Source: Pseudomonas xionganensis (GTDB lineage Bacteria; Pseudomonadota; Gammaproteobacteria; Pseudomonadales; Pseudomonadaceae). From it: DNA of 64,000 nucleotides. Each line of letters starts with the position of its first letter. Position 1 is the first letter of the stretch. Position numbers and translations under genes: made by a program. The notes beneath the pieces are model-generated. The model was given only the letters and a program-made list of their open reading frames with translations, had not been told where the DNA came from and did no database searches. The stretch lies in contig NZ_WKJZ01000001.1 of assembly GCF_009763245.1 (NCBI RefSeq), positions 946,455-1,010,454 on the forward strand, written 5' to 3'. Positions 2,281-64,000 of the stretch are shown here, in pieces.

Positions 2281-2535
2281 ATGTCCCTGCGCACCCCTGC
2301 TCTGTTGTTGTGCTGCCTGGCGCTGGTCGCCTGCAGCAAGGTCAACCAGGAGAACTATTCCAAGCTCAAGCCCGGCATGACCAAGACCGAAGTGGAGGGG
2401 CTGCTGGGCGGCCCGACCGAGTGCGCCGGCGCCTTGGGCATGTCCAGTTGCACCTGGGGCGACGAGCAGCGCTTTATAAGCGTGCAGTACGCCGGCGACA
2501 AGGTGCTGATGTTTTCCGGTAAAGGGCTCAAGTAA
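2281..2535 (+). CDS. Small lipoprotein, DUF3862/BamE-like fold
   Basis: I chose the ATG at 2281, preceded by GAGG, over an in-frame GTG at 2266. The 84-residue product has a short signal peptide with lipobox LVAC (lipidated Cys18). The mature part KLKPGMTKTEVEGLLGGP is the helix-turn pattern of DUF3862 and SmpA/BamE-like domains, with later paired cysteines. It is predicted to sit on an envelope membrane facing the periplasm. It overlaps the lipocalin gene downstream by one base (TAATG), so the two are translationally coupled. Confidence 0.85.
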   Translation: MSLRTPALLLCCLALVACSKVNQENYSKLKPGMTKTEVEGLLGGPTECAGALGMSSCTWGDEQRFISVQYAGDKVLMFSGKGLK

Positions 2536-3098
2536 TGCGTCGGCTGGCAATGTTGGCCGTGGTGTCGGTGCTGGTTGGCTGCGCCAACTCCGGCACGGGG
2601 GTGGTGCCGCCGAAAACCGTGGAACAGGTCGATCTGCAGCGTTACCAGGGCACCTGGTACGAGCTGGCGCGGCTGCCGATGTTCTTCCAGCGGCACTGCG
2701 CCCAGTCCGAGGCACTTTATGAGCTGCAGGACGGCGGCACTATTGGCGTGACCAACCGCTGCCGCACCTTTGACGGTGAGATGCAGCAGGTGCAGGGCCA
2801 GGCCGTGGCCCAGGTGCCTGGGCAGACCAGCAAGCTGTGGGTGCGCTTCGACAACTGGGTCAGCCGTCTGCTGCCTGACCTGACCCGCGGCGAATACTGG
2901 GTGCTCTACCTGGATGAGGGCTATCAGCATGCCCTGGTCGGCCACCCCAATCGCGATTACCTGTGGCTGCTGGCGCGTACCCCTGAGGTATCGACCGAAA
3001 TGCGTGAGCGCCTGCTGCAGGAGGCTGGCAATCGGGGTTACGACACCGGGAAGCTGATCTGGCGCCGCAGCGATGCCGAGATGGCCCTGCCACGCTAA
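2535..3098 (+). CDS. blc: Lipocalin family lipoprotein (Blc-like)
   Basis: This 187-residue lipoprotein has lipobox LVGC (Cys16) and the lipocalin signature YQGTWYELARLP around residue 35, followed by the beta-barrel pattern and the YWVLYLDEGYQHALVGHPNRDYLWLLAR segment typical of bacterial Blc. Blc proteins are outer-membrane lipocalins that bind fatty acids or lysophospholipids. The start overlaps the stop of the upstream lipoprotein gene. Its stop lies only six bases from the stop of the convergent DUF2141 gene, with no evident terminator between. Confidence 0.9.
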   Translation: MRRLAMLAVVSVLVGCANSGTGVVPPKTVEQVDLQRYQGTWYELARLPMFFQRHCAQSEALYELQDGGTIGVTNRCRTFDGEMQQVQGQAVAQVPGQTSKLWVRFDNWVSRLLPDLTRGEYWVLYLDEGYQHALVGHPNRDYLWLLARTPEVSTEMRERLLQEAGNRGYDTGKLIWRRSDAEMALPR

Positions 3099-3583: not shown

Positions 3584-4501
3584 ATGCGTCGGGTTTTGAT
3601 CGTTCATTTTTCGCAAACCGGCCAGCTAGACAGGCTGGCGCAGTCCGTTTGCGGGCCGTTGCAGCAGCACGGCGATACCCAGCTGGATTATCTGCAGCTG
3701 CAGCCGGTGCAACCTTACCCCTTTCCCTGGCCCTTTCTCGATTTTTTCCGCATTTTCCCGGAAACCGTGCTGATGCGCCCGCAACCGCTGCGGCCGCTGG
3801 CGGTGGATGCCAGTACCCGCTATGACCTGGTGATCCTCGCCTATCAGGTGTGGTTTCTTTCGCCGTCGCAGCCGATGACTGCCTTTCTTGCTTCACCCGA
3901 GGCGGCGCACCTACTCAAGGGCACCCCGGTGGTGACCCTGATCGGCTGCCGCAATATGTGGCTGATGGCCCAGGAGAAGGTCAAGGCGCGCCTCGACCAG
4001 CTGGGCGCGCGCCTGGTGGACAATATCGCCCTGACCGATGCCTGCGGCACGGCGGCGAGCTTTCTGGCCACGCCGCTATGGCTGTTTACCGGCCGGCAGA
4101 AGCCCTACAGCTGGGTGCCTCGCGCCGGTATAGACGAGGCCGAGATTGCCGCCGCCAGCCGCTTCGGTGAGGCCATGGCGCAGCGCCTGACCGCCGATGA
4201 TCAACCGATCGAGCAGCCCATGTTGACCGGCCTTGGTGCGGTGCGCATCGATGAAAAGCTGATCGCCAGCGAGAAGGTCGGCAACCGCAGTTTCCAGCTC
4301 TGGAGCCGCCTGCTGGCTGCCCTAGGCCCGCAGCAAAGCCGTCGCCGCGCCGCCGGCCTGGTGATCTATATCCTGTTTCTGCTGTGCCTGATCGTCACCG
4401 TGGTGCCGCTCAGTGCTTTGGTGAAAAAACTGTTGGCGCCGCTGACCAAGGCGCGCACTGAACGTGAAAAGGCCTACTTCGCCGGCCCGTCCGGCGAGTG
4501 A
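3584..4501 (+). CDS. DarA-like flavodoxin-fold protein (dialkylresorcinol aromatase family)
   Basis: The 305-residue protein begins with a beta strand and the flavodoxin phosphate loop VLIVHFSQTGQ (residues 4-14), then an LVILAYQVWFL strand, as in FMN-binding flavodoxin-like enzymes. Its overall pattern and its partner fit DarA, which converts the cyclohexanedione made by DarB to the aromatic dialkylresorcinol. A C-terminal hydrophobic helix (about residues 255-280) followed by basic residues suggests membrane attachment. It is the first gene of a four-gene plus-strand operon. What it does here is inferred from family and neighbours; the exact substrate is unknown. Confidence 0.75.
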   Translation: MRRVLIVHFSQTGQLDRLAQSVCGPLQQHGDTQLDYLQLQPVQPYPFPWPFLDFFRIFPETVLMRPQPLRPLAVDASTRYDLVILAYQVWFLSPSQPMTAFLASPEAAHLLKGTPVVTLIGCRNMWLMAQEKVKARLDQLGARLVDNIALTDACGTAASFLATPLWLFTGRQKPYSWVPRAGIDEAEIAAASRFGEAMAQRLTADDQPIEQPMLTGLGAVRIDEKLIASEKVGNRSFQLWSRLLAALGPQQSRRRAAGLVIYILFLLCLIVTVVPLSALVKKLLAPLTKARTEREKAYFAGPSGE

Positions 4502-4520
4502 AGTGACCCGAGGAAGTCCC

Positions 4521-5687
4521 GTGGTACAACCCGTATTTATCAATCGCATCAGCGCCTTTCTGCCCCATGCGCCGGTCGACAACGAGCAGATGGAAGCGCG
4601 CCTGGGCCTGGTCGGCGGCAAGCCGTCGCGGGCGCGCAAGCTGATCCTGCGCAGCAATGGCATCCAGCAGCGCCACTATGTGATCGACCCGCAGACCGGT
4701 GAGCCGAGCATGAACAATGCGCAGATCAGCGCTGCGGCGATTCGTGGTCTGCTTGGCGGCGATGTCCAGCTGGATGACCTCGACTGCCTGGTGGCCAGCA
4801 GCGCCTCGCCGGATCAGGTCATGCCCGGTCACGCGGTGATGGTGCAGGGCGAGCTGGGCAATCCGCCCGCCGAGGTGGTGAGCACCGCCGGCATCTGCCT
4901 GTGCGGCATGACCGCGCTGAAATACGCCTGGATGAGCGTGGCCAGTGGCGAGAGCCGCAATGCGGTGGCCTGTGGCTCGGAGGTGGCCTCGACCCTGATG
5001 CAGGCGCGCAATTTCGAGGGCGAATATGAAAGCCGCCTGGCCGAGCTGGAAAACCACCCGGAAATCGCCTTCGAGAAGGACTTTCTGCGCTGGATGCTCT
5101 CCGATGGGGCCGGCGCCGTGCTGCTGCAGGGTCAGCCGAACCGCACAGGTTTGAGCCTGCGTGTCGACTGGATCGACATCTTCTCCTTCGCCGACCAGAT
5201 GCCGCCGTGCATGTACGCCGGCGCCGAGATGGTCGATGGCCAGTTGCAGGGCTGGAGCCGTTACGACGGCGCCGAACGCAATCGTCGCTCGCTGATGGCG
5301 ATCAAGCAGGACGTCAAACTGCTCAACGACAATATCGTCAAGTACACGGTGGAAGAGACGCTCAGGCGCATTATGGCGCGGCGTGAACTGCGTGCTGAGC
5401 AGTTCGATTATTTCCTCCCACACTACAGCTCGGAGTTCTTCCGCGAACGCCTGGCCGTGGGGCTGGCCAACGTGAACCTGGCGATCCCGCAGGAGCGCTG
5501 GTTTACCAACCTGACTCGCAAGGGCAATACCGGCGCGGCGTCGATCTTTATCATGCTCGAAGAACTGTTCAACTCCGGCCGGCTGCGCAGCGGCCAGCGC
5601 CTGCTCTGCTATGTGCCGGAAAGCGGGCGTTTCTCCAGCGCCTTTATGCAGCTGACCGTGGTTGGCCAGGAGGATGACAACACATGA
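4521..5687 (+). CDS. DarB-like 3-oxoacyl-ACP synthase III (StlD/DarB family ketosynthase)
   Basis: I chose the GTG at 4521 because GAGGAAG lies just upstream; an in-frame GTG at 4464 would overlap darA and add an unlikely tail. The 388-residue product has a KAS III thiolase fold: a cysteine in AGICLCGM (Cys126 or Cys128), a histidine in LPHYSSEF and an asparagine in KGNTGAAS. Enzymes of this family condense two beta-ketoacyl units by Claisen and Michael reactions into a cyclohexanedione, the precursor of dialkylresorcinols. It overlaps the next gene by four bases. Confidence 0.8.
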   Translation: MVQPVFINRISAFLPHAPVDNEQMEARLGLVGGKPSRARKLILRSNGIQQRHYVIDPQTGEPSMNNAQISAAAIRGLLGGDVQLDDLDCLVASSASPDQVMPGHAVMVQGELGNPPAEVVSTAGICLCGMTALKYAWMSVASGESRNAVACGSEVASTLMQARNFEGEYESRLAELENHPEIAFEKDFLRWMLSDGAGAVLLQGQPNRTGLSLRVDWIDIFSFADQMPPCMYAGAEMVDGQLQGWSRYDGAERNRRSLMAIKQDVKLLNDNIVKYTVEETLRRIMARRELRAEQFDYFLPHYSSEFFRERLAVGLANVNLAIPQERWFTNLTRKGNTGAASIFIMLEELFNSGRLRSGQRLLCYVPESGRFSSAFMQLTVVGQEDDNT

Positions 5688-6091
5688 AGCTCGATGAAGT
5701 CCCCCAGGATCACAGCTCCACCTACGGCGGGCACCGCAAACTGGTCTATGCGGTGGATGCCAGCGGTCATTATCAGGGCGCCCAGAGCGATGGCTGGGAG
5801 CCGGAAGCCTTTGCCACCCAGCTGGCCGTAGCCGAACTGCAGGAGCAGGAAGCCGAAGCCGAAGCGGCCTGGCAGCGCGGCGAGCTGTCGCCGCTCAAAT
5901 GCCTGATGTACCGCTACCGCCTGGATGAGCCGGCGCTGGCGCAGATCACCGGGCTGTGGCAGTGGCGCATTCGCCGGCACTTTCGCCTGACTATTTATAA
6001 GAAGCTGTCGGCGGCCATTCTGGCCCGTTATGCCGAGGCCTTTGGCCTGCCCGTTGCACAGTTGATCGCTTACCAGAAGGACATGGCATGA
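5684..6091 (+). CDS. Conserved-looking small protein of unknown function in the DAR-like operon
   Basis: I do not recognise this 135-residue protein. It overlaps DarB by ATGA and the BtrH-like gene by ATGA, so it is firmly part of the operon. The middle is a glutamate/alanine-rich helix (about residues 45-66). The C-terminal third (LKCLMYRYRLDEPALAQITGLW... to the end) alternates short helices and basic residues in a way that resembles a helix-turn-helix, with WQWRIRRHFR as a basic stretch. There is no signal peptide, membrane segment or catalytic motif. It could be a regulator or a small scaffold for the condensing enzymes. Confidence 0.7.
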   Translation: MKLDEVPQDHSSTYGGHRKLVYAVDASGHYQGAQSDGWEPEAFATQLAVAELQEQEAEAEAAWQRGELSPLKCLMYRYRLDEPALAQITGLWQWRIRRHFRLTIYKKLSAAILARYAEAFGLPVAQLIAYQKDMA

Positions 6092-7095
6092 GCAGTTTCC
6101 AGCAGCCCTTTCAGCATCAGCAGAGTGCCCATTGCGAAAGCGGGGTGATGGCCAGCCTGCTGACCCACGCCGGCCTGCCGATGAGCGAGCCGATGGCCTT
6201 TGGCCTGGCCTCGGGGCTGGCCTTTGCCTACCTGCCGATCGTCAAGCTCAGCGGTATGCCCCTGATCGCCTACCGCATGCCGCCCAAGCACCTGATCAAG
6301 ACCCTGAGCAAACGCCTCGGTGCGAAGCTGCATACCCGCACCTTCGGCGATCCCGAGCAGGGCCGTCGTGAGCTGGATGCGGCGTTGGACAGCGGTCGCC
6401 TGGCTGGGCTGCAGAGTTCGGTGTTCTGGCTGCCGTACTTTCCGCCGGAGATGCGTTTTCACTTCAATGCGCACAACCTGCTGGCCTATGGCCGCGAGGG
6501 CAATGAATACCTGATCAGCGATCCGGTGTTCGAAGAACCGGTGCGCTGCGCCGCCGAAGACTTGCAGAAGGCGCGTTTTGCCAAGGGAGCCCTGGCCGCC
6601 AAGGGCCTGATGTACTGGCTGGAGGACGTGCCCCTGGAGCAGGACTGGAACAAGCTGATTCGCCAGAGCGTGCTGTCCACCACACGGATTATCGATGGTA
6701 TGCCGCTGCCCTGGATCGGCATTCGCGGCATTCAGCATCTGGCGGGGCAGATCGAACGACTCGACCCGACCCAGGCCAAGTACAACCGCCTGTACCTGAC
6801 CCATATCGTGCGTATGCAGGAAGAGATCGGCACCGGCGGCGCGGGTTTCCGCTTTATGTACGCGAGCTTCCTGCAGGAGGCGGGCGAGAAGCTCGGCGAT
6901 CGCAACCTGCAGGAGGCTTCGGTGCAACTCACGGCCATCGGCGACAACTGGCGCCAGTTTGCCTCGGCCTGCGTGCGCGCCAGTCGCAACAAGGGTGAGA
7001 CGCCAAACTTTGCGCCTATCGCCGAAAGCCTGCGCGGCATTGCCCTGCAGGAGCGCGCGCTGATGAAGGAACTGGCGGCTTGGAGCAAGCGGTAG
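6088..7095 (+). CDS. BtrH N-terminal domain protein, putative acyl-ACP-dependent acyltransferase
   Basis: This 335-residue protein opens with a papain-like active-site segment HCESG (Cys16), has a histidine in AHNLLAYG (His129) and an aspartate in LISDPV (Asp145): the Cys-His-Asp arrangement of C39-like folds and BtrH-type enzymes. BtrH in butirosin synthesis moves an acyl group from an acyl carrier protein to an amino-sugar acceptor. A C-terminal DUF4872-type helical region follows. By analogy it may transfer an acyl chain from the cluster ACP to a resorcinol hydroxyl; the acceptor is a guess. Its TAG stop falls inside a repeat arm shared with the convergent gene. Confidence 0.72.
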   Translation: MSSFQQPFQHQQSAHCESGVMASLLTHAGLPMSEPMAFGLASGLAFAYLPIVKLSGMPLIAYRMPPKHLIKTLSKRLGAKLHTRTFGDPEQGRRELDAALDSGRLAGLQSSVFWLPYFPPEMRFHFNAHNLLAYGREGNEYLISDPVFEEPVRCAAEDLQKARFAKGALAAKGLMYWLEDVPLEQDWNKLIRQSVLSTTRIIDGMPLPWIGIRGIQHLAGQIERLDPTQAKYNRLYLTHIVRMQEEIGTGGAGFRFMYASFLQEAGEKLGDRNLQEASVQLTAIGDNWRQFASACVRASRNKGETPNFAPIAESLRGIALQERALMKELAAWSKR

Positions 7096-7164
7096 GGTGG
7101 ATCGCGCTTTATTGATCCACCGATCAACGCCCCCGGTGGATGAAAACGGCGTCATCCACCCTAC
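7092..7164. repeat. Paired-hairpin repeat between convergent operons
   Basis: The outer arms GTAGGGTGGAT (7092-7102) and ATCCACCCTAC (7154-7164) are exact inverted repeats. Inside are two hairpins, GGTGGATC...GATCCACC at 7096-7121 and GGTGGAT...ATCCACC at 7135-7160. Both flanking genes end with TAG codons that lie within the arms. The sequence family is the short intergenic TAGGGTGGAT-type repeat common in Pseudomonas genomes, and it probably serves as a two-way transcription end. Confidence 0.8.
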
Positions 7165-7718
7165 AGCTTGATTCGCTGTACCTCGGTGCCTGCGCTCAGT
7201 TCGCTAAAGCTGTTGGCATAGGCGCCGGTTATCGCGCCCTCCAGCAGCACCGCCTGCACCGAAAAATCCCCGCGCTCATCGCAAACCAGCAACAGCGCCT
7301 GCTCGATCAGGCCGTCGCGCAGATCCAGATTGGCCAGGGCCTGCAATTGCGGCCAGACCTGCTGCCCTGCACCGATAAACAGATTCGGCCCGTCGATGCC
7401 CAGTTGCTGAGCGATATAAAAGCCTGCGGCATTGCTGACGCTATTCACAAACTCGAAGGGTTTGGGCTGTTTGTGCTGCACGCACACCGCCTCCAACAGC
7501 GCGCCCATGGTGGCCCGTGCCGGGTGGGCAGAGGCCAGATACAGGCCGCAGTGGCTGCGCACTTTTGCTTTCAAGGGCGCAGCCGCCAGCAGGCATTGCA
7601 GGATCAGGCGGTCGATGCGCCGCGGCGGGTTATCCAGCCACTGGCTTAGAGCCGTTTTTAAGTCTTTATCGCTGATGCTGGCCAGGCCGTGGACTTCACT
7701 GGCGGCAATTACCGTCAT
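7161..7718 (-). CDS. Ketosynthase-like protein, chain-length-factor type (Ketoacyl-synt_2)
   Basis: The 185-residue product resembles only the N-terminal half of a ketosynthase: NSVSNAAGFYIAQQLGIDGPN is the diagnostic stretch of the short beta-ketoacyl synthase-like family. The Cys-His-His catalytic set is absent, so it should not condense on its own. In APE systems a comparable protein (ApeC) pairs with the ketosynthase ApeO as a chain-length factor. The four-base ATGA overlap with the upstream ketosynthase supports such a pair. It is the last gene of the minus-strand operon. Confidence 0.75.
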   Translation of the reverse strand: MTVIAASEVHGLASISDKDLKTALSQWLDNPPRRIDRLILQCLLAAAPLKAKVRSHCGLYLASAHPARATMGALLEAVCVQHKQPKPFEFVNSVSNAAGFYIAQQLGIDGPNLFIGAGQQVWPQLQALANLDLRDGLIEQALLLVCDERGDFSVQAVLLEGAITGAYANSFSELSAGTEVQRIKL

Positions 7719-8833
7719 GCGCTGTCTCCCTGGGCGCAGCCCTGCAAAATAAGACTGGCATTATTGCCGCCAAAACCAAAGAAGTTGGCCAGCAGCAGGC
7801 TATCGGCCGCCAGCCTCTGCAGTTCGGCGCTAAAGGGTAGCAGGGCCTCGCTGGCGTAGCTCACGCCGGGCAACGGGCCCAGTTGCAGGGCCTTGAGCAG
7901 CAGCAGGCTTTCACTCAGGCCGCAGGCGCCCAGGGTGTGGCCGAGCCAGGGTTTGAGCAGGCTCAGGGCGGGCATCTGCTCGCCATACAGCAGGCGCATA
8001 CCGTTGCTTTCGGCTTCATCGTTGGCGCTGGTGGCGGTGCCGTGCAGTTTCACCAAGTCGATCTGTTCGGCGCTGCAGCCGGCGCTTTTCAGCGCCTGTC
8101 GCATCACCCAGTGGATATGGCTGCCATCTTCGCGGGTGGTGGTCAGGCTGCTGGTGTCGCAGGCGCTAAAGCCGCCGAGCAGGCGCGCCAGTGGAGCGTC
8201 CCCTGCTTCGCGGCCGAGCAGCACGGCGGCATAGGCCTCGCCCAGGAGCAGGCCATCACGTTCGGGGTGGAAGGGCCGGTACTGGCCGCTTGGGCTGGTC
8301 AACATCAGCGCGCCGAAACCCTGCATGGCGATGGCGCTGGGCGTTTCGAAACTCAACACCAGGGCGCGGGCGTACTGATCGGAATTGATCAGTCGGGCGC
8401 CGTACAGCAGGCCATTGGCGGCGCTGGTGCAGGCGGTGTTCAGGGTGAAGGCGGCGGCAAAACCCCAGCGCTGGCACAGTTGGCTGGCCAGCAGGTCGAG
8501 GGACGTCGAATCGCCCGGGGCAAAGCCCTGCTGCGTGCGGGTCAGGGCTTCCAGTTCACTGATATCCAGGCTGGTGCTGGCGACGATCAGCAGGCAGTCA
8601 TCGAGTGCCTGGGGTTGCGGGCCGAGAACGGCGGCAAGGCAGCGATCCAGGCGCTCGTCCAGGCTGCCGGCAGGGCCGGTGGCGTTCAGGTAGCGGCGCG
8701 GCTCCTGCACTTCATGCAACTTGAACACGTCGCCCTGGGGCTGCTGGCCGGCCAGCAGGTTGCTGGCGGCTTCCTCCAGGCTGGCGCCAAGGGCGCAGTC
8801 CAGGGCGCTGCGCTGCAGATACACCGGGGTCAC
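7715..8833 (-). CDS. Beta-ketoacyl-ACP synthase (FabF/ApeO-like)
   Basis: The catalytic triad is intact: cysteine in NTACTSAANG, histidine in KLHGTATSANDE and histidine in LGHTLGACGLSES, with a final NFFGFGGNNASL. The frame opens at 8917, but the first 28 codons look non-coding and contain a hairpin. The GTG at 8833 follows GGAGG at ideal distance and begins the conserved VYLQ strand, so I place the start there (372 residues). It should extend ACP-bound chains with the ACP encoded upstream and the CLF-like protein downstream. Confidence 0.85.
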   Translation of the reverse strand: MTPVYLQRSALDCALGASLEEAASNLLAGQQPQGDVFKLHEVQEPRRYLNATGPAGSLDERLDRCLAAVLGPQPQALDDCLLIVASTSLDISELEALTRTQQGFAPGDSTSLDLLASQLCQRWGFAAAFTLNTACTSAANGLLYGARLINSDQYARALVLSFETPSAIAMQGFGALMLTSPSGQYRPFHPERDGLLLGEAYAAVLLGREAGDAPLARLLGGFSACDTSSLTTTREDGSHIHWVMRQALKSAGCSAEQIDLVKLHGTATSANDEAESNGMRLLYGEQMPALSLLKPWLGHTLGACGLSESLLLLKALQLGPLPGVSYASEALLPFSAELQRLAADSLLLANFFGFGGNNASLILQGCAQGDSA

Positions 8834-8844
8834 TGCTGCTGCCT

Positions 8845-8875
8845 CCGAAGCGTTTCGTTGGCGGCTGCGCTTCGG
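8845..8875 (-). repeat. Hairpin between ACP and ketosynthase genes
   Basis: An exact 8-bp inverted repeat (CCGAAGCG at 8845-8852, CGCTTCGG at 8868-8875) with a 15-base loop lies directly upstream of the ribosome binding site of the ketosynthase. It may stabilise or process the mRNA between the ACP and KS genes. Confidence 0.5.
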
Positions 8876-8906
8876 CCAAGCGGCGTTGAAAGCGGGCTCA
8901 AAATGC

Positions 8907-9239
8907 TCATTTAGCATCCGTAAACTGCGCTTTCTCGCCCGCTTTCGCCTTGCCTGGCTCTAGCTCGCCGGCCACCGAGCCGCTTCGGATATAGGCGGCA
9001 ATGCTGGCGATCGTGGCGAGGATACGTCGGCCGTCCTTGGCGCCTTCAATGCGCACGCCGTAGTGCTGCTGCAGGGCCAGGGACACCTGCAGGGCATCCA
9101 GGCTGTCCATGGCGATACGGCTCTTGCCGCCGAACAGTGGCTCGTCGTCGCTGATGCTTTGCCAGTCGATATCGTCTTCCTTGTCGCACTCGCGGATCAG
9201 CAGTTGCTTGAGTTGTTCTTCTAGTAATGGGTGGTCCAT
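8907..9239 (-). CDS. Acyl carrier protein
   Basis: The 110-residue protein has the ACP four-helix pattern with the phosphopantetheine attachment serine in AMDSLDALQ. The loop before it is longer than usual (PLFGGKSRIAMDSL), as in ACPs of APE and flexirubin-like clusters. The C-terminal tail after the last helix is basic and glutamate-rich and looks disordered. The start overlaps the end of the permease gene by 19 bases. It is the likely carrier for chains handled by the KS, dehydratase, DarB-like and BtrH-like enzymes of this island. Confidence 0.85.
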   Translation of the reverse strand: MDHPLLEEQLKQLLIRECDKEDDIDWQSISDDEPLFGGKSRIAMDSLDALQVSLALQQHYGVRIEGAKDGRRILATIASIAAYIRSGSVAGELEPGKAKAGEKAQFTDAK

Positions 9240-10405
9240 TGGCTTTGCTGTACTCGTCGGGTGAACAGAAACAGCCCCGCAACGCCGCAGATTGCAGCAA
9301 ACAGCAGCAGGCGCGCGCAGTAGGGGGCGATGTCGGCCAGTGAGCCGTGGCCCACCAGCAGGCTGAGAAAGGCGTCCAGCGCCCAGCTCATGGGGGAGAT
9401 TTCCGCAAGTCCGGCCATGGCCGCCGGCATCACGCTTTTGGGCACCATGATCCCGCCGATGGCGGCCAGCAGGATATTGATGCCGCCGCCCAGCAGCAAC
9501 GCCTGTTCGCTGCTGCGGGCCAATGCGGCCAGCAGCAGACCCAGGCTGCAGGTGGCCAGGGCGATACTGAGTGCCAGCAGTGGATAGGCGGCTGCGCTGC
9601 CGGGCAGGCTGAGCGCCGGCAGGCCCAGTAGCGGCAGGCCATGGAGGCCGATACTCAGCAGCAACACAAATTGCAGCAGGTTGATCGCCAGGTAGGGCAG
9701 CAGCTTGCTTAGCACCAGAGTGCCGAGGTTCAGGCCCAGGCAGCGCAGACGCAGCAGCGCGCCGCTCTGTTGCTCGCGCTGAAAACCACCGGCCATGGGC
9801 AGCACGACGAAGAACATGCCGAAAATCAGCCAGGCCGGCACGCTCAGCTGGCTGGCATTGGCCCGGCCACTGAGGTCGCCGCTGGCCAGTTGTTCCTGTT
9901 CGTCGATGTGGCTTTGGGTGCGCTGCTGCACCAGTTGCAGGCGCTCGCCGCGGCTGAGTTCGGCATCGACCACGCCGCTGTCCTCCAGATAGGCCAGCAG
10001 CCGGGTCTGCGCCAGGGCGATGCTCACGGCGCTGTGCAGGCGCTGGCGCGAGAGTTTGTCGAACTGTGCCGGGAAGCTCAGGCTCGGCCCCTGGTGTGGG
10101 CTGTCCAGCAGCGTGGCGGCAAAGTCGGCGGGCAGACGCACCCGGGCCAGGCGTTCGTCGCTGTCTGCGAGCAGCTGGCTGCCTGGCAGTTGCGCCTGCA
10201 GGGCGGCGTGGAAGAACTGGCTGGCATCGTCCTGCGGCGCCTCGATAATCAGGCGCAGGGCCGGCGGCTTGTCCTGCATATAGCTGGACATGGCCCCGGC
10301 CATCAGCAGCAGAAACAGGGTCGGCATGATAAACAGCACGGCCAGGGCATGGGGGTCGCGCAGCAGCAACAGCACTTCCTTGCGCACCAGCGCCCAGAGC
10401 CTCAT
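9221..10405 (-). CDS. ABC-2 type exporter permease
   Basis: The ATG at 10405 overlaps the ATPase stop (ATGA) and gives a 394-residue product; the open frame upstream is a shadow of the ATPase gene. Topology is typical of ABC-2 permeases with a large extracytoplasmic loop: one N-terminal membrane helix (LFIMPTLFLLLMAGAM), about 180 soluble residues, then five membrane helices. It pairs with the adjacent ATPase. In this context the cargo is probably the lipid or resorcinol product; the sequence itself does not show the substrate. Confidence 0.88.
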   Translation of the reverse strand: MRLWALVRKEVLLLLRDPHALAVLFIMPTLFLLLMAGAMSSYMQDKPPALRLIIEAPQDDASQFFHAALQAQLPGSQLLADSDERLARVRLPADFAATLLDSPHQGPSLSFPAQFDKLSRQRLHSAVSIALAQTRLLAYLEDSGVVDAELSRGERLQLVQQRTQSHIDEQEQLASGDLSGRANASQLSVPAWLIFGMFFVVLPMAGGFQREQQSGALLRLRCLGLNLGTLVLSKLLPYLAINLLQFVLLLSIGLHGLPLLGLPALSLPGSAAAYPLLALSIALATCSLGLLLAALARSSEQALLLGGGINILLAAIGGIMVPKSVMPAAMAGLAEISPMSWALDAFLSLLVGHGSLADIAPYCARLLLFAAICGVAGLFLFTRRVQQSQWTTHY

Positions 10406-11286
10406 AGCCGGCCTCCGTTCAGACGCAGGTAGAGCTGCTCCAGGGACGGTCGGCCGAAGCGCAGCAGGTTGGGCAGGCCATCCTGGGCGGTGACAAATTT
10501 CGTGATGGCCAGCAACTGCTGGCCATTCAGGGTGGCAATACGCAGGCCCTTGGGCAGTGTTTCCGCGCTCAGTTGCAGGCGTGCAAGCAGTTCGCCCAGG
10601 CCGGCGGGCGGGGCATCCGGCCATTCCAGCAGCAGGCCATGGTCGTCGCCGAGCAGCTGGCGCTTGTCCAGATCCAGGCGCACCTGGCCCTCGTGCAGCA
10701 GCAGAATGCGCTGCGCCACCCGCTCCACTTCTTCCAGGTAATGGCTGGTGTAGATCACCGCCTTACCCTCGGCGCTCAGCTGCTCGACCGCGACCAGTAG
10801 CTGCTGGCGGCTGGCGGCATCGACGCCCACGGTGGCTTCATCGAACAGGTAGAGATCGGCCGGCTGCAGCAGGCCGATGGCAAAATTCAGCCGCCGTTGT
10901 TCGCCGCCGGAGAGTCGTTCGCTGCGCCGCGTCAGCTTGTCCGCCAGGGCGCAAGTCTCGATGCACTGTTGCAGTCGCTGGCGCCGCTCGGCGCCGCGCA
11001 GGCGATAGAGGTCGGCAAACAGCTCAAGGTTCTCGCCCACCTTGAGCCTGGCATAGAAGGCCATCTGCTGTGGCACCAGCCCCAGGCGCAGATGGCTATC
11101 CTTCCGGATCTCGCCCTGCTGCAGGGGCAGTACGCCACTGAGCAGCGATAGCAGGGTGGTCTTGCCGGCACCATTGCTGCCCAGCAGGCCCAGGCATTCG
11201 CCGGCCTGCAGCTGCAGGTTGATACCCTGCAGGGCGGCGCGGGTGCTGCCTGGGTACTGGTGACTGACCTGGCTGAGCTCAAGCAT
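10402..11286 (-). CDS. ABC transporter ATP-binding protein
   Basis: The 294-residue ATPase has Walker A GSNGAGKTT (about residue 36), signature RLSGGEQRRLNFA and Walker B LYLFDEATVGVD, then the H-loop in IYTSHYLEEVE. It belongs to the drug/lipid exporter type that partners with ABC-2 permeases. It overlaps the dehydratase gene by eight bases and the permease by four, inside a compact six-gene operon. Confidence 0.93.
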   Translation of the reverse strand: MLELSQVSHQYPGSTRAALQGINLQLQAGECLGLLGSNGAGKTTLLSLLSGVLPLQQGEIRKDSHLRLGLVPQQMAFYARLKVGENLELFADLYRLRGAERRQRLQQCIETCALADKLTRRSERLSGGEQRRLNFAIGLLQPADLYLFDEATVGVDAASRQQLLVAVEQLSAEGKAVIYTSHYLEEVERVAQRILLLHEGQVRLDLDKRQLLGDDHGLLLEWPDAPPAGLGELLARLQLSAETLPKGLRIATLNGQQLLAITKFVTAQDGLPNLLRFGRPSLEQLYLRLNGGRL

Positions 11287-11686
11287 GGATCAGCACCAGC
11301 AACAGCTTGCCGTCCAGCAGCAGCTGTTCTTCGCTGTGGATGCAAAAGGCATAGAGGGCGCCGGCTGGGCTCAGGGCCTCCTGGGTGGCGCTGACCTGCA
11401 GGGCGCCGCTGCGCCGGGTTGGCTCATGGTGCAGCTGCAGCTGGGAGAGTTTGCCCACCAGGGCCATTTCAATGGCACTGCTGTCGCCATATAGGGCACC
11501 ATGCGCGGCGCATAATTGCGCGGCCGCCTCGAACAGCAGGCAGGGCGAGGCAGCGCTGCCAAAGGCATCCAGGTAGTGCCAGTCGGTGAGGCCCTGGATG
11601 CTCAGTGGATCGTGCGCCAGCAGGCCATCCAGCCAGAGGGCCGGGCCTTGATGGGGCAGCAGGCTGTGCAGTTGAGTGCGGTCCAT
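11279..11686 (-). CDS. Hotdog-fold 3-hydroxyacyl-ACP dehydratase-like protein (FabZ/ApeI-like)
   Basis: The 135-residue product starts with LLPHQGPALWLDGLLAHDP, the FabA/FabZ pattern with its catalytic-type histidine, followed by FGSAASPCLLFEAAAQLCAAHGA, the central hotdog helix. It would remove water from 3-hydroxyacyl-ACP or act as a related thioester enzyme. It is the first gene of the minus operon; the roughly 100 bases upstream to the divergent methyltransferase gene should carry the operon promoter, though I see no clear motif. Confidence 0.78.
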   Translation of the reverse strand: MDRTQLHSLLPHQGPALWLDGLLAHDPLSIQGLTDWHYLDAFGSAASPCLLFEAAAQLCAAHGALYGDSSAIEMALVGKLSQLQLHHEPTRRSGALQVSATQEALSPAGALYAFCIHSEEQLLLDGKLLLVLIHA

Positions 11687-11785
11687 TGCGGGCGGCCGGA
11701 ATAAACAGGCCGGCAGTGTAACAGAGGGCTACAGCTCAGGCAGCGCTTGGCTTTGCCGGATTGGTGAATGAAACAGGAGAGCGTG

Positions 11786-12340
11786 ATGGCGTGGTGGCAG
11801 GCAGGGCTGTTTGGCCTGGGGACATGGGTTCTGCTGGCGTTGTCCTGGCGTGCGCTGGGGCGGCCACAGTCCCACGGTTTCTATCGCTTTTTTGCCTGGG
11901 AGGCGATTCTCGCCCTGTTGGTACTCAATGGCCCGCTGTGGTTTGTGGACCGTTTCGCGCCGCACCAGCTGGCCTCCTGGGCGCTGTTGTTCGCTTCCCT
12001 GCTGGTGCTGTTCCCCGGGGTGTATCAGCTGCAGCGCATGGGGCGTGCGGATGGGCAGCGTCAGGACGCCGAACTGTTCGCCTTCGAGCGTACCTCGCAG
12101 CTGGTGACCACTGGCATCTATCGCTATATCCGCCACCCGCTGTACGCCTCGTTGCTGCTGCTGGCCTGGGGCCTGGCCTGCAAGCAGCCGGGCATGCTGA
12201 GCTGGGCCCTGGCGCTGCTGGCCAGCCTGATGCTGTGGCTGACTGCCCGCTGTGACGAGGCCGAATGCCTGGCCTATTTCGGTGAGGCCTATCGGGACTA
12301 TATGGGGCGCAGCCGGATGTTTATTCCCTGGGTGTTCTGA
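11786..12340 (+). CDS. Isoprenylcysteine carboxyl methyltransferase-like membrane protein
   Basis: The ATG at 11786 has CAGGAGA five bases upstream; an earlier in-frame ATG at 11768 overlaps that site and is less likely. The 184-residue product has several membrane helices and ends with the ICMT/PEMT motif LVTTGIYRYIRHPLYASLLLLAWG, then an acidic DEAECLAYFGEAYRDYM segment that binds S-adenosylmethionine in this superfamily. The substrate is unknown. Its stop is three bases from the convergent lipoprotein gene. Confidence 0.82.
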   Translation: MAWWQAGLFGLGTWVLLALSWRALGRPQSHGFYRFFAWEAILALLVLNGPLWFVDRFAPHQLASWALLFASLLVLFPGVYQLQRMGRADGQRQDAELFAFERTSQLVTTGIYRYIRHPLYASLLLLAWGLACKQPGMLSWALALLASLMLWLTARCDEAECLAYFGEAYRDYMGRSRMFIPWVF

Positions 12341-26581: not shown

Positions 26582-26779
26582 TGGGCAACACTCCGTCGTC
26601 AAACCATGAGAGTTCAAGGTCGAGCAATAAGCAGCAAGGCTTATACCAATACAGGTCGCGACGCATTCCAAAGCGCCGCGCGGCGAAGTACAGGTAATAG
26701 CCTGTGCCCTGAGTGGGGTCAAGCAGCGATTGCCCGCACCTTAGTGGTGCCGCACGTCAAGTGGTGTTGGTGCGCCGTT

Positions 26780-27637
26780 TCAATGGCTGCGGGCGCTGGT
26801 GGGGTGGGGGTGCATCACCGCGCGCTGACGCTCCTCTTCGAGGAATTTCATGATGATCGGCGCCACGGCTTCGGCACGGGTCACCAGAAACAGGTGGCCA
26901 TCGTCGATCACATGCAGCTCGGAGTTGGGGATACGCCAGGCCAGCAGGCGCATATTCACCAGCGGGATCAGCGGATCGTCATCGCCGGCCATCACCAGGG
27001 TGGGTTGGCGGATCTTGTGCAGCCAATGGATGCTGGTCCAGCCGAGGCCAGCAAACAGCTGCCAGTAGTAGCCCATCTTGCCGCCCGAACGCACCTTGCT
27101 GGCATGGGCCAGGGCCAGCTTGGGGTCGCGGCGAAAGGCGCCGCCATAGATTTCCGGAGCGATCTGCACGCCGTAGGACGGTTGCACATAGCGCCGCGGG
27201 CTGGCCATGCACCAGAGCACCTTGGGCTTGCCGGGGATCATCACCGCGCCGGCCGAGGTGGCAGCGAGGATCAGCTTCTTGCAGCGCTCCGGGTAGTCAT
27301 GGGCAAACTGCTGGGCCAGGGCGCCGCCCCAGGACACGCCGATGGCGTTGACCTGGCCGTAGTCCAGGTAGTCGAGCATGCGCGCGGCCAGTTTGGCCAG
27401 GCCCGGGAAGCGATAGGGTGTAGCCGGGGTGGACGAGCCGCCCACGCCGGGCACGTCGAAGGCGATCACCTCCAGATCCGGGTCGAGGGCGCGGACAAAG
27501 GGCATCACCAGTTCGAGGTTGGCGCCGATGCCATTGAAGATCAGCAGCGGCGTCAGTTTGCCGTTGCCCGGGCGAACGGCGGTTCGCAAGGTCTGGCCGT
27601 CCAGTTCGATGGTGCGGAATACGAAAGGTAGCGACAT
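26780..27637 (-). CDS. phaZ: Intracellular mcl-PHA depolymerase PhaZ
   Basis: From the ATG at 27637 (MSLPFVFRTIELDGQ) the product is 285 residues, the normal length. It is an alpha/beta hydrolase with nucleophile elbow GVSWGG (catalytic serine), the FDVPGVGGSS strand and a late histidine in DDGHLFLVT. It degrades stored PHA from within the cell. It lies between the two synthase genes, as in other mcl-PHA producers. Confidence 0.95.
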   Translation of the reverse strand: MSLPFVFRTIELDGQTLRTAVRPGNGKLTPLLIFNGIGANLELVMPFVRALDPDLEVIAFDVPGVGGSSTPATPYRFPGLAKLAARMLDYLDYGQVNAIGVSWGGALAQQFAHDYPERCKKLILAATSAGAVMIPGKPKVLWCMASPRRYVQPSYGVQIAPEIYGGAFRRDPKLALAHASKVRSGGKMGYYWQLFAGLGWTSIHWLHKIRQPTLVMAGDDDPLIPLVNMRLLAWRIPNSELHVIDDGHLFLVTRAEAVAPIIMKFLEEERQRAVMHPHPTSARSH

Positions 27638-27796
27638 GCGCAAAGGCCCTATCAAATAAATCACTGGGGCGGACCTTCCCGGTCTTTCCCAGAACCGCCA
27701 GGGCAAAGCCTGGTTCGCCAGCTCCGACCATTCAGCGGCCGGGCTGGCGAGCGACACCTCCGGTGTCGCGGGCAGTGTTGCGCAATGCGCAGTGAA

Positions 27797-60555: not shown

Positions 60556-61791
60556 TCAAGCCCAGCGCTTGAAGATCAGCGAAGTATTGACTCCACCAAA
60601 GGCAAAGTTGTTGTTCATCACATACTCATGCTGCATCGCCCGGAACTCGCCGCGCAGGTAGTCCAGCTCGCCGCAGGCCGGGTCGATCTCGTCCAGGTTC
60701 AGGGTCGGCACATAACGGTCTGAATTCATCATTTCGATACTGAACCAGGACTCCAGCGCGCCGCAGGCTCCCAGGGTGTGGCCCAGGTAGCTTTTCTGCG
60801 AGCTGATCGGCATCTGGCTGCCGAACAGTTCCTGGGTAGCCAGGGTCTCGGCCACGTCGCCCTGCTCGGTGGCGGTGCCGTGGCCGTTGACATAGCCGAT
60901 GGCGGCGGGCGCCAGGCCGGCATCCTGCAGCGCCAGCTCCATGGCCCCGCGCATGGTCGCCTGCACCGGCTTGGTCGCGTGCTGGCCATCGGCGTTGCAG
61001 CCAAAACCGACGATCTCGGCGTGGATGGTGGCGCCCCGGGCCAGGGCGTGTTCCAGCTCTTCGAGCACCAGGATGCCGGCCCCTTCGCCGATCACCAGGC
61101 CGTCGCGGCCGCTGTCATAGGGACGCGGCGAGCTGTGCGGGGCGTCGTTCTTCAGGCTGGTGGCGTACAGCGCATCGAAGACCATGGCCTCGGTGGGGCA
61201 GAGTTCCTCGGCGCCACCGGCCAGCATCATCGGCAGGCGGCCGAACTTGATCGCTTCATAGGCATAGCCGATGCCCTGGCTGCCGCTGGTGCAGGCGCTG
61301 GAGGTGGGGATCAGGCGGCCCTTGAGGCCGAAGAAGATGCTGATATTGGCCGCCGTGGTGTGCGGCATCATGCGGATATAGGAGTTGGCGTTGAGGCCGT
61401 CCGCCACGGAATTGAGCAGCATATTGCCGAAGGCCTTGATCTCGTCGGTGCTGCCGGTGGAGGAACCGCAGGCCACGCCCATGCGCCCGTCCTGGATGCG
61501 TTCGTCGCCGAGCAGGCCGGCGTGCTCCAGGGCGCGTTCGGCGGCATACACGGCCAGCTTGGAGACGCGGCCCATGCTGCGGGTCTGCTTGCGGTTCCAG
61601 TGTTTGGGCTGGACGAAGTCGTCCACCGGACCGCCGAGGCGGGTGTTCAGCTCGCTGAACCTGTCCCACTCGTGCATATAGCGGATGCCGCTCTTGCCGG
61701 CCTTGAAGGCCGCCGCAATGGTCGGCCAGTCGCTGCCCAGCGAGGTCACCCCGGCCATGCCGGTGACTACAACCCGTTTGCATCCGTTCAT
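60556..61791 (-). CDS. apeR: Beta-ketoacyl-ACP synthase, ApeR-like
   Basis: The 411-residue ketosynthase starts at the ATG at 61791, overlapping the apeQ stop as TGATG. The catalytic set is complete: cysteine in SSACTSGSQG, histidine in VNGHGTATEQGD and histidine in YLGHTLGACGALES. The order KS, dehydratase, reductase, KS in this minus-strand operon is that of apeO-apeP-apeQ-apeR in aryl polyene clusters. ApeR starts or supports the chain extension in APE synthesis. It is the last gene of the cluster. Confidence 0.85.
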   Translation of the reverse strand: MNGCKRVVVTGMAGVTSLGSDWPTIAAAFKAGKSGIRYMHEWDRFSELNTRLGGPVDDFVQPKHWNRKQTRSMGRVSKLAVYAAERALEHAGLLGDERIQDGRMGVACGSSTGSTDEIKAFGNMLLNSVADGLNANSYIRMMPHTTAANISIFFGLKGRLIPTSSACTSGSQGIGYAYEAIKFGRLPMMLAGGAEELCPTEAMVFDALYATSLKNDAPHSSPRPYDSGRDGLVIGEGAGILVLEELEHALARGATIHAEIVGFGCNADGQHATKPVQATMRGAMELALQDAGLAPAAIGYVNGHGTATEQGDVAETLATQELFGSQMPISSQKSYLGHTLGACGALESWFSIEMMNSDRYVPTLNLDEIDPACGELDYLRGEFRAMQHEYVMNNNFAFGGVNTSLIFKRWA

Positions 61792-62519
61792 CAGCACAGC
61801 CCACCGTTTACTGCGAGGACCTGGCGGGTGATATAGGCCGCCTCCTCGCTCATCAGAAAATTCACCGCGCCGGCCACCTCTTCCGGGGTGCCCATGCGCG
61901 CAGCCGGAACCATCTTGAGGATGTCCTCGATGGGCACATCGGCATCGAGGATCTCGGTATCGATCAGCCCCGGGGCCACGCAGTTGACCGTGATCTTGCG
62001 CTTGCCCAGCTCGATGGCCAGGGCTTTGGCCGCGCCGATAATGCCGGCCTTGGAGGCGCTGTAGTTGACCTGGCCACGGTTGCCGATCAGCCCGGACACC
62101 GAAGTGATGCAGACGATGCGCCCGGCCTTGCGGCGGCGGATCATGGGCATGGTCAGCGGATGCAGCACATTGTAGAAGCCGTCCAGATTGGTGCGTAGCA
62201 CGCTGTCCCAGTCATCCTCGGACAGTGCCGGGAAGGCGCCGTCGCGGGTCAACCCTGCATTACAGACGACCCCATAATAGGCGCCATGTTGCTCCACATC
62301 GGTCTCCAGCGCCGCGCGGCAGGCCACGCGGTCGGACACATCGAATTGCAGGATGCGCGCCTGTTGGCCCAGCTCAAGAATCTGCGCCTGCACCGCTTCG
62401 GCTTCCTCGCGGCGGGCGCGGCAGTGCAGCACGATGTCATAGCCGCTCTTGGCCAGACGCAGGGCAATGGCGCGGCCGATACCACGGCTGGAACCGGTGA
62501 CCAGAATGGTTTCGCTCAT
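61791..62519 (-). CDS. apeQ: 3-ketoacyl-ACP reductase, ApeQ-like (FabG family)
   Basis: The ATG at 62519 (ATGA overlap with apeP) gives a 242-residue short-chain dehydrogenase: TGSSRGIGRAIAL nucleotide motif, NAG in VCNAGLTRDGAF, catalytic serine in CITSVSGLIG and YSASK. It reduces the ketoacyl-ACP intermediates with NADPH. The long open frame upstream is a shadow of apeP. Confidence 0.88.
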   Translation of the reverse strand: MSETILVTGSSRGIGRAIALRLAKSGYDIVLHCRARREEAEAVQAQILELGQQARILQFDVSDRVACRAALETDVEQHGAYYGVVCNAGLTRDGAFPALSEDDWDSVLRTNLDGFYNVLHPLTMPMIRRRKAGRIVCITSVSGLIGNRGQVNYSASKAGIIGAAKALAIELGKRKITVNCVAPGLIDTEILDADVPIEDILKMVPAARMGTPEEVAGAVNFLMSEEAAYITRQVLAVNGGLC

Positions 62520-62980
62520 AAAGGCTGTTCCTGAAAGTCTTCCTGAAGATAGCTGGCCACCTGGGGTGGACGGAATACGTTGAGACGGGCCATGGCCTCG
62601 ATGCCCGGGCCGCGCAGCTGGCACTCGAACACGCCCATGCCGTTGTCGTCCTGCAGCGAGCGGGTCGCATGAATATGCAGCTCGGCGCCCAAGGGGAAGC
62701 GCTCGACATTGCACTCATATTTGCGCGTACCGAGGAGAAAGCCCAGCTCCACCGGCGCACCGGCCAGGCGTGCCTGGTAGCCGGCGTAGGCGGCGATGCT
62801 CTGGGCCATCAGCTCGATGCCGACCCAGGCCGGCAGGCTGCCATCGGCCTGGCTAAACAGGCCGCCAGCGCGGACAGTGAGCTGGGTTTCGATATCCTCG
62901 TCGCCGCAGCGCAGCAGCCGGTCGATCAGGATCATATCGGCGGCGTGGGGGATCAGCTCGGCGATCGGCCACTGGCTCAT
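62516..62980 (-). CDS. apeP: Hotdog 3-hydroxyacyl-ACP dehydratase, ApeP-like
   Basis: The 154-residue product begins with IPHAADMILIDRLLRCGDED, the FabA/FabZ-type segment, and WVGIELMAQSIAAYAGYQARLAG, the hotdog central helix. It would remove water from the hydroxyacyl-ACP so that a conjugated polyene forms. It overlaps both neighbours by four bases. Confidence 0.85.
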   Translation of the reverse strand: MSQWPIAELIPHAADMILIDRLLRCGDEDIETQLTVRAGGLFSQADGSLPAWVGIELMAQSIAAYAGYQARLAGAPVELGFLLGTRKYECNVERFPLGAELHIHATRSLQDDNGMGVFECQLRGPGIEAMARLNVFRPPQVASYLQEDFQEQPL

Positions 62981-64000
62981 GGCGCGTCCCCCAGCAGCAG
63001 GCTGATATTGTTGCCGCCAAAGGCAAAGGAGTTGCTCATCAGACGGCGCGGGTGCTTAGTGCTCAGTTGCGTGCCGGTATTGACCAGATTCAGTGTCGGC
63101 AAAGCCGGGTCGGCCTGACCATCCCACAGGTGTGGCGGTAGGCAATGCTCCGGGTTGTATGGGCTCAGGGTCAGCCAGCAGAAGGCCGCTTCCAGGGCAC
63201 CGGCCGCGCCCAGGGTGTGGCCGACCATGGCCTTGCTGGAGGAGCAGGGCACCCCGTTGGGGAATATGGCCTGCACGGCATGGCTTTCCATGGCGTCGTT
63301 ATGCAGGGTGGCGGTGCCATGCAGGTTCAGGTAATCGACCTGCTCGGCGCTGATCCCGGCCGCAGTCAGGGCTTTTTCCATGGCCGCCTGGGCACCAAGG
63401 CCATCGGGCTGCGGCGCGGAGATATGGTGGGCGTCGCAGCTGGCGCCGCCGCCCAGCAGGCTGATCGGCTCGCTGCCGGGCAGCGCTTCCTTGCTCATCA
63501 GAAACAGCGCCGCGCCTTCACCGATATTGATGCCCTGGCGGTTGGCCGAGAAGGGCTGGCAAGGTTCGGCCGAAACGGCCTCCAGGGCGGAAAACCCATT
63601 GAGGGTCAGGCGGCACAGGCTGTCCACGCCGCCACAGAGTACCGCATCGCAAAGCCCCAGATTGATCAGGCGCTGGGCACTAAGCAGGGCCCGCGCCCCG
63701 GATGTGCAGGCGGTGGAGATCACGTAGCTGGGGCCGCCCAATCCCAGCCAGTCGCTGAGAAAGGCGGCCGGCGCCGTCAGCTCCTGCTGGGCATAGTCAT
63801 AGCTGGCCGGCAGCTCGCCGTGCTGCTGGTGCTGGGCAATGCCCTGGCTGGCTTCTTCGATGCCCGAGGTGCTGGTGCCGAGAATCACGCCGATGCGCCC
63901 GGCACCGAACTGGGCGATGGCGGCGCGGATCTCGCTTTCGATTTCCAGGGCAGCGGCCAGCAGCAGCTGGTTATTGCGGCTGGCTGGATGGCCGGGCAAG
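62977..64000 (-). CDS. apeO: Beta-ketoacyl-ACP synthase, ApeO-like (partial, 5' end outside window)
   Basis: The reading frame runs off the right edge; about 50-60 N-terminal residues are probably missing. The cysteine in STACTSGARALL, histidine in NLHGTATLHNDAMES and histidine in VGHTLGAAGALEA are present, with NSFAFGGNNISL at the end. With a chain-length factor (ApeC) ApeO extends the polyene. The first visible residues match the ...PASRNNQLLLAA region of ApeO proteins. Confidence 0.85.
   Translation of the reverse strand, partial: LPGHPASRNNQLLLAAALEIESEIRAAIAQFGAGRIGVILGTSTSGIEEASQGIAQHQQHGELPASYDYAQQELTAPAAFLSDWLGLGGPSYVISTACTSGARALLSAQRLINLGLCDAVLCGGVDSLCRLTLNGFSALEAVSAEPCQPFSANRQGINIGEGAALFLMSKEALPGSEPISLLGGGASCDAHHISAPQPDGLGAQAAMEKALTAAGISAEQVDYLNLHGTATLHNDAMESHAVQAIFPNGVPCSSSKAMVGHTLGAAGALEAAFCWLTLSPYNPEHCLPPHLWDGQADPALPTLNLVNTGTQLSTKHPRRLMSNSFAFGGNNISLLLGDAP

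Follow-up and report, generated by a model that had tools for sequence, protein, structure and literature searches.

An aryl polyene-dialkylresorcinol ester pigment as the likely product of a dialkylresorcinol module and a separate aryl polyene cluster in Pseudomonas xionganensis

A stretch of 64,000 nucleotides from the genome of Pseudomonas xionganensis (GCF_009763245.1; NZ_WKJZ01000001.1, positions 946,455-1,010,454 of the forward strand) was analyzed; it is called the window below, and coordinates are window positions. The list of its open reading frames (ORFs) contains a set of ten that form two operons meeting tail to tail (Table 1). The plus operon carries darA-, darB-, darG- and darH-type genes of dialkylresorcinol (DAR) formation, and the minus operon carries genes for a predicted dehydratase, an ABC-2 transporter, an acyl carrier protein (ACP), a ketosynthase (KS) and a small protein resembling a chain-length factor (CLF). 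An initial annotation of this DNA had described the ten genes as a self-contained DAR-type lipid factory. The coordinates and strands that it gave for the ten ORFs were reproduced, and the DAR-type identity, the dedicated exporter and the BtrH-like acyltransferase agree with matches to NF005293, NF053536, NF053550 and Pfam models. The DarA-like, dehydratase and CLF-like proteins matched no Pfam or NCBIfam model.

Table 1. Features of the DAR locus, its flanking genes and the part of the aryl polyene (APE) cluster that lies in the window.
Feature	Position	Strand	Evidence
DUF2141 protein, 148 aa	3105..3551	-	PF09912 65.9 bits (cut-off 24.4)
darA-like, DAR aromatase/condensing partner, 305 aa	3584..4501	+	position, synteny; no Pfam/NCBIfam match
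darB-like, StlD/DarB ketosynthase (DAR cyclase), start uncertain	4464..5687	+	NF005293 591 bits (cut-off 450)
DarG family protein, 135 aa	5684..6091	+	NF053536 171 bits (cut-off 70)
DarH, predicted BtrH-like papain-fold carrier-protein acyltransferase	6088..7095	+	NF053550 477 bits (cut-off 300)
Inverted repeat between the operons	7092..7164	strandless	one copy of a repeat dispersed in the genome
Small CLF-like/partial ketosynthase protein, 185 aa, positional equivalent of Azoarcus darK	7161..7718	-	no family match
Ketosynthase, positional equivalent of Azoarcus darJ	7715..8917	-	PF02801/PF00109
Acyl carrier protein, DSL motif (Ser46)	8907..9239	-	PF00550 20.4 bits (just below cut-off 20.8)
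ABC-2 type permease	9221..10405	-	PF01061, PF12698
ABC transporter ATPase	10402..11286	-	PF00005 95.8 bits
Predicted hotdog-type dehydratase, 135 aa	11279..11686	-	no model match; 53/80 loci
ICMT/PEMT-like membrane methyltransferase, candidate tailoring enzyme	11768..12340	+	PF04191 34.5 bits (cut-off 25), PF04140 25.8 bits (cut-off 24)
ApeR-like ketosynthase, first APE gene	60556..61797	-	NF006587 729 bits (cut-off 470)
ApeQ-like ketoreductase	61791..62519	-	TIGR01831 388 bits (cut-off 338.85)
ApeP-like dehydratase	62516..62980	-	PF22817 ApeP 67.2 bits (cut-off 27)
ApeO-like ketosynthase, truncated by the window end	62977..64000	-	NF006618 531 bits (cut-off 407)

Public loci with a DarH gene were compared using the best 80 of the 310 found, with gene presence scored by tblastn at E<=1e-5; the fetched stretches are at most 21 kb long and some contigs end early, so that APE genes missing from a locus say little. 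Genomes (G numbers; L numbers denote loci) came from a genus draw of 298 and a class-wide draw of 369, the latter including this genome, and all co-occurrence counts ignore shared ancestry. The initial annotation had proposed a check for conserved synteny of all ten genes, and all ten were detected in 53 of the 80 DarH loci (nine in 65, when the dehydratase is excluded). DarA and DarB were detected together in 79.

A complete APE cluster lies 49 kb downstream of the DAR genes, starting within the window and running beyond it (C1:1,007,010-1,024,040; L028 1011-18041). Its biosynthesis genes encode two ketosynthases, a ketoreductase, an ApeP dehydratase, a flavin enzyme, a thioesterase and an ammonia-lyase, and its transport and envelope genes a lipoprotein-like ORF, an RND/MMPL-like transporter, a LolA-like protein and a membrane protein. 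Two acyltransferase-like proteins, a glycosyltransferase, an AMP-ligase fused to a dehydratase-like domain, two ACP-like proteins and a CLF of the Ketoacyl-synt_2 family complete the set; several of these gene names come from matches below cut-off or from reading of the sequence. The longest ORF of the ApeQ-like gene reaches 62714, and its family match opens at residue 66 of that ORF.

The DAR locus resembles the dar cluster of Azoarcus sp. BH72. In its published gene list (PMC3949708), darA, darB, a small gene and a BtrH-like gene follow one another in the same order as in the window, and so do the genes for an ABC ATPase, an ABC permease, an ACP, a KS and a small protein; the comparison is one of gene list, kind and order and not of aligned sequences. 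The darG and darH of that paper are a toxin-antitoxin pair, and the DarG and DarH of NCBIfam correspond by position to its darD and darE. In both genomes the polyene clusters sit elsewhere, whereas the two halves of the DAR set are convergent only in the window, and the dehydratase, DUF2141 and ICMT-like genes are additional to the Azoarcus list. Azoarcus has a toxin-antitoxin pair inside the cluster and obtains its starter through a chorismatase (ArcB), where the APE cluster of the present genome has an ammonia-lyase; no XanB2-type chorismatase was named among the NCBIfam matches listed for 16 of the 18 APE genes, and no search aimed at one was made within or outside the cluster. According to the same paper, the DAR of Azoarcus was not found free but only within arcuflavin, for which an ester bond between the DAR and an aryl polyene acid was predicted (PMC3949708).

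Such combinations are also reported for Pseudomonas. Three types of hybrid APE-DAR clusters (V1-V3) are described for Pseudomonadaceae, V1 being the type of P. chaetocerotis and of Pseudomonas sp. 8O, and their chemistry is said still to need characterising (PMC10165715); aryl polyene-resorcinol hybrids are listed in an antiSMASH survey (PMC8704066), and an arylpolyene plus resorcinol cluster is reported for P. seleniipraecipitans (PMC12239753). The gene set had been called little described, which stands for the chemistry but not for the genes, since a matching gene list is published for Azoarcus (PMC3949708) and hybrids are reported (PMC10165715, PMC8704066); the APE-DAR kind had already been reported in silico in Pseudomonas (PMC10165715). 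The link of this locus to an APE cluster, a candidate coupling enzyme, the DUF2141 and ICMT-like partners and the fold of DarG are added here.

In Pseudomonas sp. 8O, a single 21-kb stretch (L110) holds genes for DUF2141, darA, darB, darG, darH, the CLF-like protein, KS, ACP, permease, ATPase, dehydratase, the ICMT-like enzyme, apeR, apeQ, apeP and apeO, i.e., the hybrid is joined there, whereas 49 kb separate the DAR from the APE genes in the window genome. The flexirubin clusters of Bacteroidetes are comparable in their product, a DAR ester of an aryl polyene such as the one proposed here, and in having DarG-type and LolA2-type genes. All flexirubin-specific models scored below cut-off here (DarG 122 of 170, FlxA 304 of 700, FlxB 269 of 340 and LolA2 41 of 125 bits), and by those models the system is therefore not a flexirubin cluster.

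DAR and APE genes occur together well beyond these examples. In the class draw DarB scored over cut-off in 21 of the 369 genomes, and all 21 were positive for ApeO (E<=1e-60), compared to 80 of 369 overall (hypergeometric 1e-15, uncorrected for shared ancestry). In the genus draw DarH was over cut-off in 22 of 298 genomes (and weak in G096), and in all 22 ApeO passes its cut-off as well, which it does in 235 of the 298 altogether. The distance between the DarH and ApeO genes in these 22 genomes is about 9 kb in seven, 55-60 kb in six and more than 900 kb in two, and in the remaining seven the genes lie on different contigs. At least two APE genes were found inside the same locus (about 20 kb) in 31 of the 80 DarH loci, when ApeQ-like matches of less than 55% identity and all LolA matches are excluded. 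In L070-L072 and L075-L077 some 9 kb separate the ApeQ-like gene from DarH. The joined loci include P. chengduensis, P. alcaliphila, P. straminea, Pseudomonas sp. 8O, Thiopseudomonas, Rheinheimera, Catenovulum, Gilvimarinus, Neisseria, Conservatibacter and Aggregatibacter, and in two Neisseria loci (L143, L152) darA, darB, darG and darH are located within the APE genes. The window system would work as a hybrid but is a split one, its genome having both the DAR genes and a full APE cluster without a physical junction between them. The ApeQ-like ketoreductase was also tried as an APE marker (E 1e-30) and was dropped, as it matched in 30 of 30 genomes, the weaker matches presumably being FabG.

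DarH carries the domains PF14399 (BtrH_N, 165 bits, cut-off 29.7) and PF16169, and NCBIfam already calls it a BtrH-related acyltransferase; the evidence from the triad and the fold is the addition made here. The Cys-His-Asp triad (C16, H129, D145) is the same in all 28 aligned rows. The AlphaFold2 model (pLDDT 84, pTM 0.85) matched AziU3 (VIA Z 24.4, rmsd 4.5), CtaG (Z 22.8, rmsd 3.6) and CcbD (Z 19.4, rmsd 4.5) in alignments spanning about 290-310 residues, with the next fold at Z 12.7. Sequence searches of DarH against solved structures returned nothing beyond designed coiled coils or a single weak match. Identity to these three proteins of the closthioamide (CtaG), celesticetin (CcbD) and azinomycin (AziU3) pathways is 11-15%. 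The PDB entries of CtaG include C11A, H128A and D144N variants, and these positions parallel C16, H129 and D145 of DarH in order and roughly in spacing. The acceptors of CcbD and AziU3 are amines or carrier-bound peptides. BtrH_N is a papain-like domain near the C39 and C70 peptidases, and BtrH itself is an ACP:aminoglycoside acyltransferase, according to PMC10318531, while CtaG was proposed to move 4-hydroxybenzoate from a carrier protein onto a carrier-bound peptide (PMC6772006); for DarH, in contrast, a phenol is proposed as the acceptor. A common fold is no proof of function, but the formation of the ester requires that a carrier-bound acyl group is moved to an acceptor, as proposed for CtaG, and DarH is the strongest candidate for this step.

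Based on the match to the Azoarcus gene list, the APE cluster in the same genome, the co-occurrence of the two gene sets and the triad and fold of DarH, we consider it likely that the locus is the DAR part of an ester pigment made of an aryl polyene and a dialkylresorcinol. This would be a protective pigment of the membrane, with an oily resorcinol end made and exported by the two operons and a coloured half made by the APE cluster. Several observations weigh against this interpretation. DAR and APE genes are 49 kb apart here and more than 900 kb apart in two relatives. Four genomes (G553, G530, G436 and G018) carry DarA, DarB and APE genes without DarH, and without DarG in the stretch read, which indicates that a combination of DAR and APE does not always involve coupling by DarH; three of them (G553, G530 and G436) have no DarH anywhere in the genome and no DarG within the 4.1 kb read, and both genes are present in the other 18 of the 21 class genomes with DarB over cut-off. 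Since the class genomes with DarB over cut-off and G018 are ApeO-positive with or without DarH, the data tie DAR to APE without singling out DarH. APE clusters are so common in the genus that the co-occurrence seen there is weak (P 0.004, uncorrected). The roles of the dehydratase and of the CLF-like protein are weakly indicated, by position and weak profiles, and the product and every enzymatic step are predictions. A Fisher test of DarH against ApeO in 30 DarB-matching genomes (17 of 17 ApeO-positive with DarH, 5 of 13 without) was set aside as confounded, because the eight ApeO-negative genomes show no DarA in the 3.3-19 kb read around the DarB-like gene; these DarB-like proteins (34-41% identity) are probably not DAR enzymes.

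The same four genomes bear on a variant that is compatible with the proposed pigment, in which one of the acyltransferases encoded with the APE genes makes the ester, while DarH has an editing or priming role on an ACP. Two acyltransferase-like proteins of that cluster are available for such a role (PF03279 42.2 bits, cut-off 22.3, and TIGR00530 50.7 bits, below its cut-off of 102.95), and G553, G530, G436 and G018 combine DarA, DarB and APE genes in the absence of DarH. However, E. coli-type APE clusters without DAR genes have acyltransferases of this kind as well. Moreover, the closest folds of DarH include CtaG, a proposed mover of carrier-bound acyl groups (PMC6772006). In addition, CcbD, which has a similar role, is among them. 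We regard this variant as rather improbable.

A second alternative, the lipid factory of the initial annotation, would have DarH acylate the resorcinol with a fatty acyl group from the minus operon and the ABC transporter export the product, with the APE cluster being unrelated. The cluster does have its own ACP, KS and putative dehydratase, and all 22 DarH genomes of the genus draw have kept the CLF-like gene that here ends the minus operon, even where it is unlinked (G013). However, no ketoreductase is present in the ORF list of the minus operon, DAR and APE genes co-occur tightly across families and are frequently adjacent, and the Azoarcus report proposes that a matching gene set yields an APE ester (PMC3949708). 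With a full APE cluster in the same genome, the description as self-contained no longer holds, we judge the alternative unlikely, and the picture of a stand-alone factory would be corrected if the ester pigment is real.

P. chlororaphis reportedly makes 2-hexyl-5-propylresorcinol (HPR) with a DarA/DarB pair and without DarH. The G018 locus, which we take to be of the HPR type, also lacks DarG, the CLF-like protein and DUF2141, and its pair is divergent (DarB 54%, DarA 45%). That the window genes make a comparable free DAR as an antibiotic or signal, with DarG, DarH and the transporter serving resistance or regulation, as might be suggested by the DarA/DarB homology and by the presence of such a pair without DarG and DarH in the same genus, is very improbable given this divergence and the window DarB score below the curated resorcinol_DarB cut-off.

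Returning to the ester pigment, two flanking genes travel along with the ten, so that the set does not end where the initial annotation had placed its borders. The DUF2141 gene is divergent from darA, their start codons being 32 bases apart, and its product shows, by eye, an apparent Sec signal peptide and a conserved D-x-N-x-N-G-x-L-D loop. In the genus draw, the genomes with a homologue (E<=1e-6) are precisely the 22 in which DarH passes its cut-off, and the remaining 276 have none. It was found near darA in 66 of the 80 DarH loci and is retained in Pseudoalteromonas, Catenovulum and Gilvimarinus, where the neighbours of the window on the fbp side are absent. No open-licence PMC literature that links DUF2141 with resorcinol was found, an absence which carries little weight. 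The ICMT-like gene is near the set in 51 of the 80 loci; L030 and L034 have it between the DAR and APE genes. ICMT-like SrsB of Streptomyces methylates alkylresorcinols. Neither DUF2141 nor ICMT is named in any described cluster that we found, the combination of ICMT and resorcinol having been left out of the literature search. Beside the DUF2141 gene, at 2535-3098, there is a Blc-like lipocalin (PRK10477 115 bits, below the cut-off of 267), which was detected in 30 of the 80 loci, mostly those that have the common fbp-side neighbourhood.

We give about an even chance to a fuller proposal, in which DarH is a phenol-acylating papain-fold carrier-protein acyltransferase that makes the pigment ester, DUF2141 is a dedicated envelope partner and the full DAR module comprises twelve genes. 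The pathway proposed for the ester pigment would run as follows. The KS, CLF-like protein, dedicated ACP and dehydratase may build or hand over beta-keto or enoyl chains. Condensation, cyclisation and aromatisation are established for the DarAB family, and accordingly DarB would condense and cyclise two acyl thioesters and DarA aromatise the product to a 2,5-dialkylresorcinol. The APE cluster, judging from its gene content, would supply a carrier-bound aryl polyene acid, the acyl group of which would be taken up by Cys16 of DarH and esterified with a phenolic hydroxyl of the resorcinol, a step suggested by the fold, the triad and the co-occurrence. The ICMT-like enzyme would probably O-methylate one aromatic hydroxyl, a role that is weakly supported. 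Transport to the outer membrane may be the task of the ABC-2 transporter, acting with two proteins of the APE cluster (MMPL-like and LolA-like) and with the secreted DUF2141 protein. The fusion with a resorcinol might unite two protective groups, as proposed for arcuflavin (PMC3949708), and, if the ester-pigment interpretation is true, a relative such as P. peli (DSM 17833, L083), which has the set intact, would offer a simple route to the ester enzyme and to the role of DUF2141.

Within the plus operon, the name darA is supported by position and synteny and by Table 1 of the Azoarcus paper, the gene being adjacent to darB as expected. The start of DarB is uncertain, as its family match opens only at residue 24; C122, H297 and N332 (numbered from VFINRIS) are kept in at least 95% of 80 rows. 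From this count, and from those for the permease, ACP and ketosynthase given below, rows not exceeding 70% of the query length had been removed. In the exception model resorcinol_DarB (NF053539) the window DarB reaches 479 bits, which is below the cut-off of 550 and places it outside this narrow model.

ATGA-type overlaps link darG to both of its neighbours, darB and darH. The predicted model of DarG has a mean pLDDT of 78 (blocks of residues 41-130 average 73-96), and its residues 63-135 show a Cro/C1-type helix-turn-helix fold; the best VIA match is 3kxa (Z 9.4, rmsd 3.6, 92 residues aligned), followed by many helix-turn-helix repressors. The Foldseek E-values are weak (best 7.6e-03) and the same fold occurs in enzymes such as HppE, so that DNA binding by DarG is possible; a sequence search of solved structures gave no useful match. 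In the proposed pathway DarG may act as a helix-turn-helix accessory protein or regulator, for which the support is weak. In two loci from different families (L160 and L162, from G511 and G684), DarG and DarH are on the strand opposite to darAB, which suggests that the pair may move as a unit.

In the minus operon, H12 and E53 of the predicted dehydratase are invariant in 16 rows, and the protein matches the ApeP profile weakly (probability 2%). A match to the ABC ATPase was obtained in 76 of the 80 loci, a few of which are perhaps unrelated ABC ATPases. The longest ORF of the permease reaches 10624, and conserved positions open at residue 82 of this long ORF; the start is probably at 10405, with a 4-base overlap with the ATPase gene. 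D45, S46 and L47 of the ACP are kept in at least 95% of 71 rows, as are C163, H292, K322 and H327 of the ketosynthase in at least 95% of 76 rows. This ketosynthase is 35% identical over 258 columns to the ApeO-like ketosynthase of the same genome, and its best sequence match in the PDB is 6qsp, the Xenorhabdus ApeO:ApeC ketosynthase.

For the small protein at the end of the minus operon, the resemblance to a CLF claimed at first is weak: it matched the CLF of the APE cluster in hhalign with a probability of 16%, and PF13723 (Ketoacyl-synt_2) was not matched at an E limit of 10, a search in which HMMER filters drop weak matches. Sequence searches of solved structures gave no useful match for this protein or for the dehydratase. 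The CLF-like gene is nevertheless present in all 22 DarH-over-cut-off genomes of the genus draw and absent from G018 and G096. It is retained where it is no longer linked to darH (about 870 kb away on the same contig in G013, on another contig in G054), and its retention in all 22 genomes argues that the two operons belong together.

The repeat at which the operons meet, already noted in the initial annotation, is predicted to form a stable hairpin (-43.1 kcal/mol, z -6.2) and is likely a two-way terminator; it is, in addition, a copy of a repeat dispersed through the genome. The 11-base arm (GTAGGGTGGAT arms) has 87 forward and 93 reverse copies, compared to 0 for a reversed-pattern control, and one copy lies inside the APE cluster (C1:1019755). 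With 180 arm copies across the genome, the repeat was ruled out as a cluster-specific signal. Rfam and tRNA scans found nothing at the locus.

Some further observations were made in passing. Isolates titled P. viridiflava (L088, L089) have the same gene set in a neighbourhood that resembles that of P. turukhanskensis (L087), and their species labels are perhaps doubtful. Elsewhere in the window, a polyhydroxyalkanoate operon with two synthases around a depolymerase-like hydrolase was recognized by eye at 24905-29476, and the Rfam antisense RNA asponA (152 bits, cut-off 113) was found at 43453-43746 beside a penicillin-binding-protein-like ORF.

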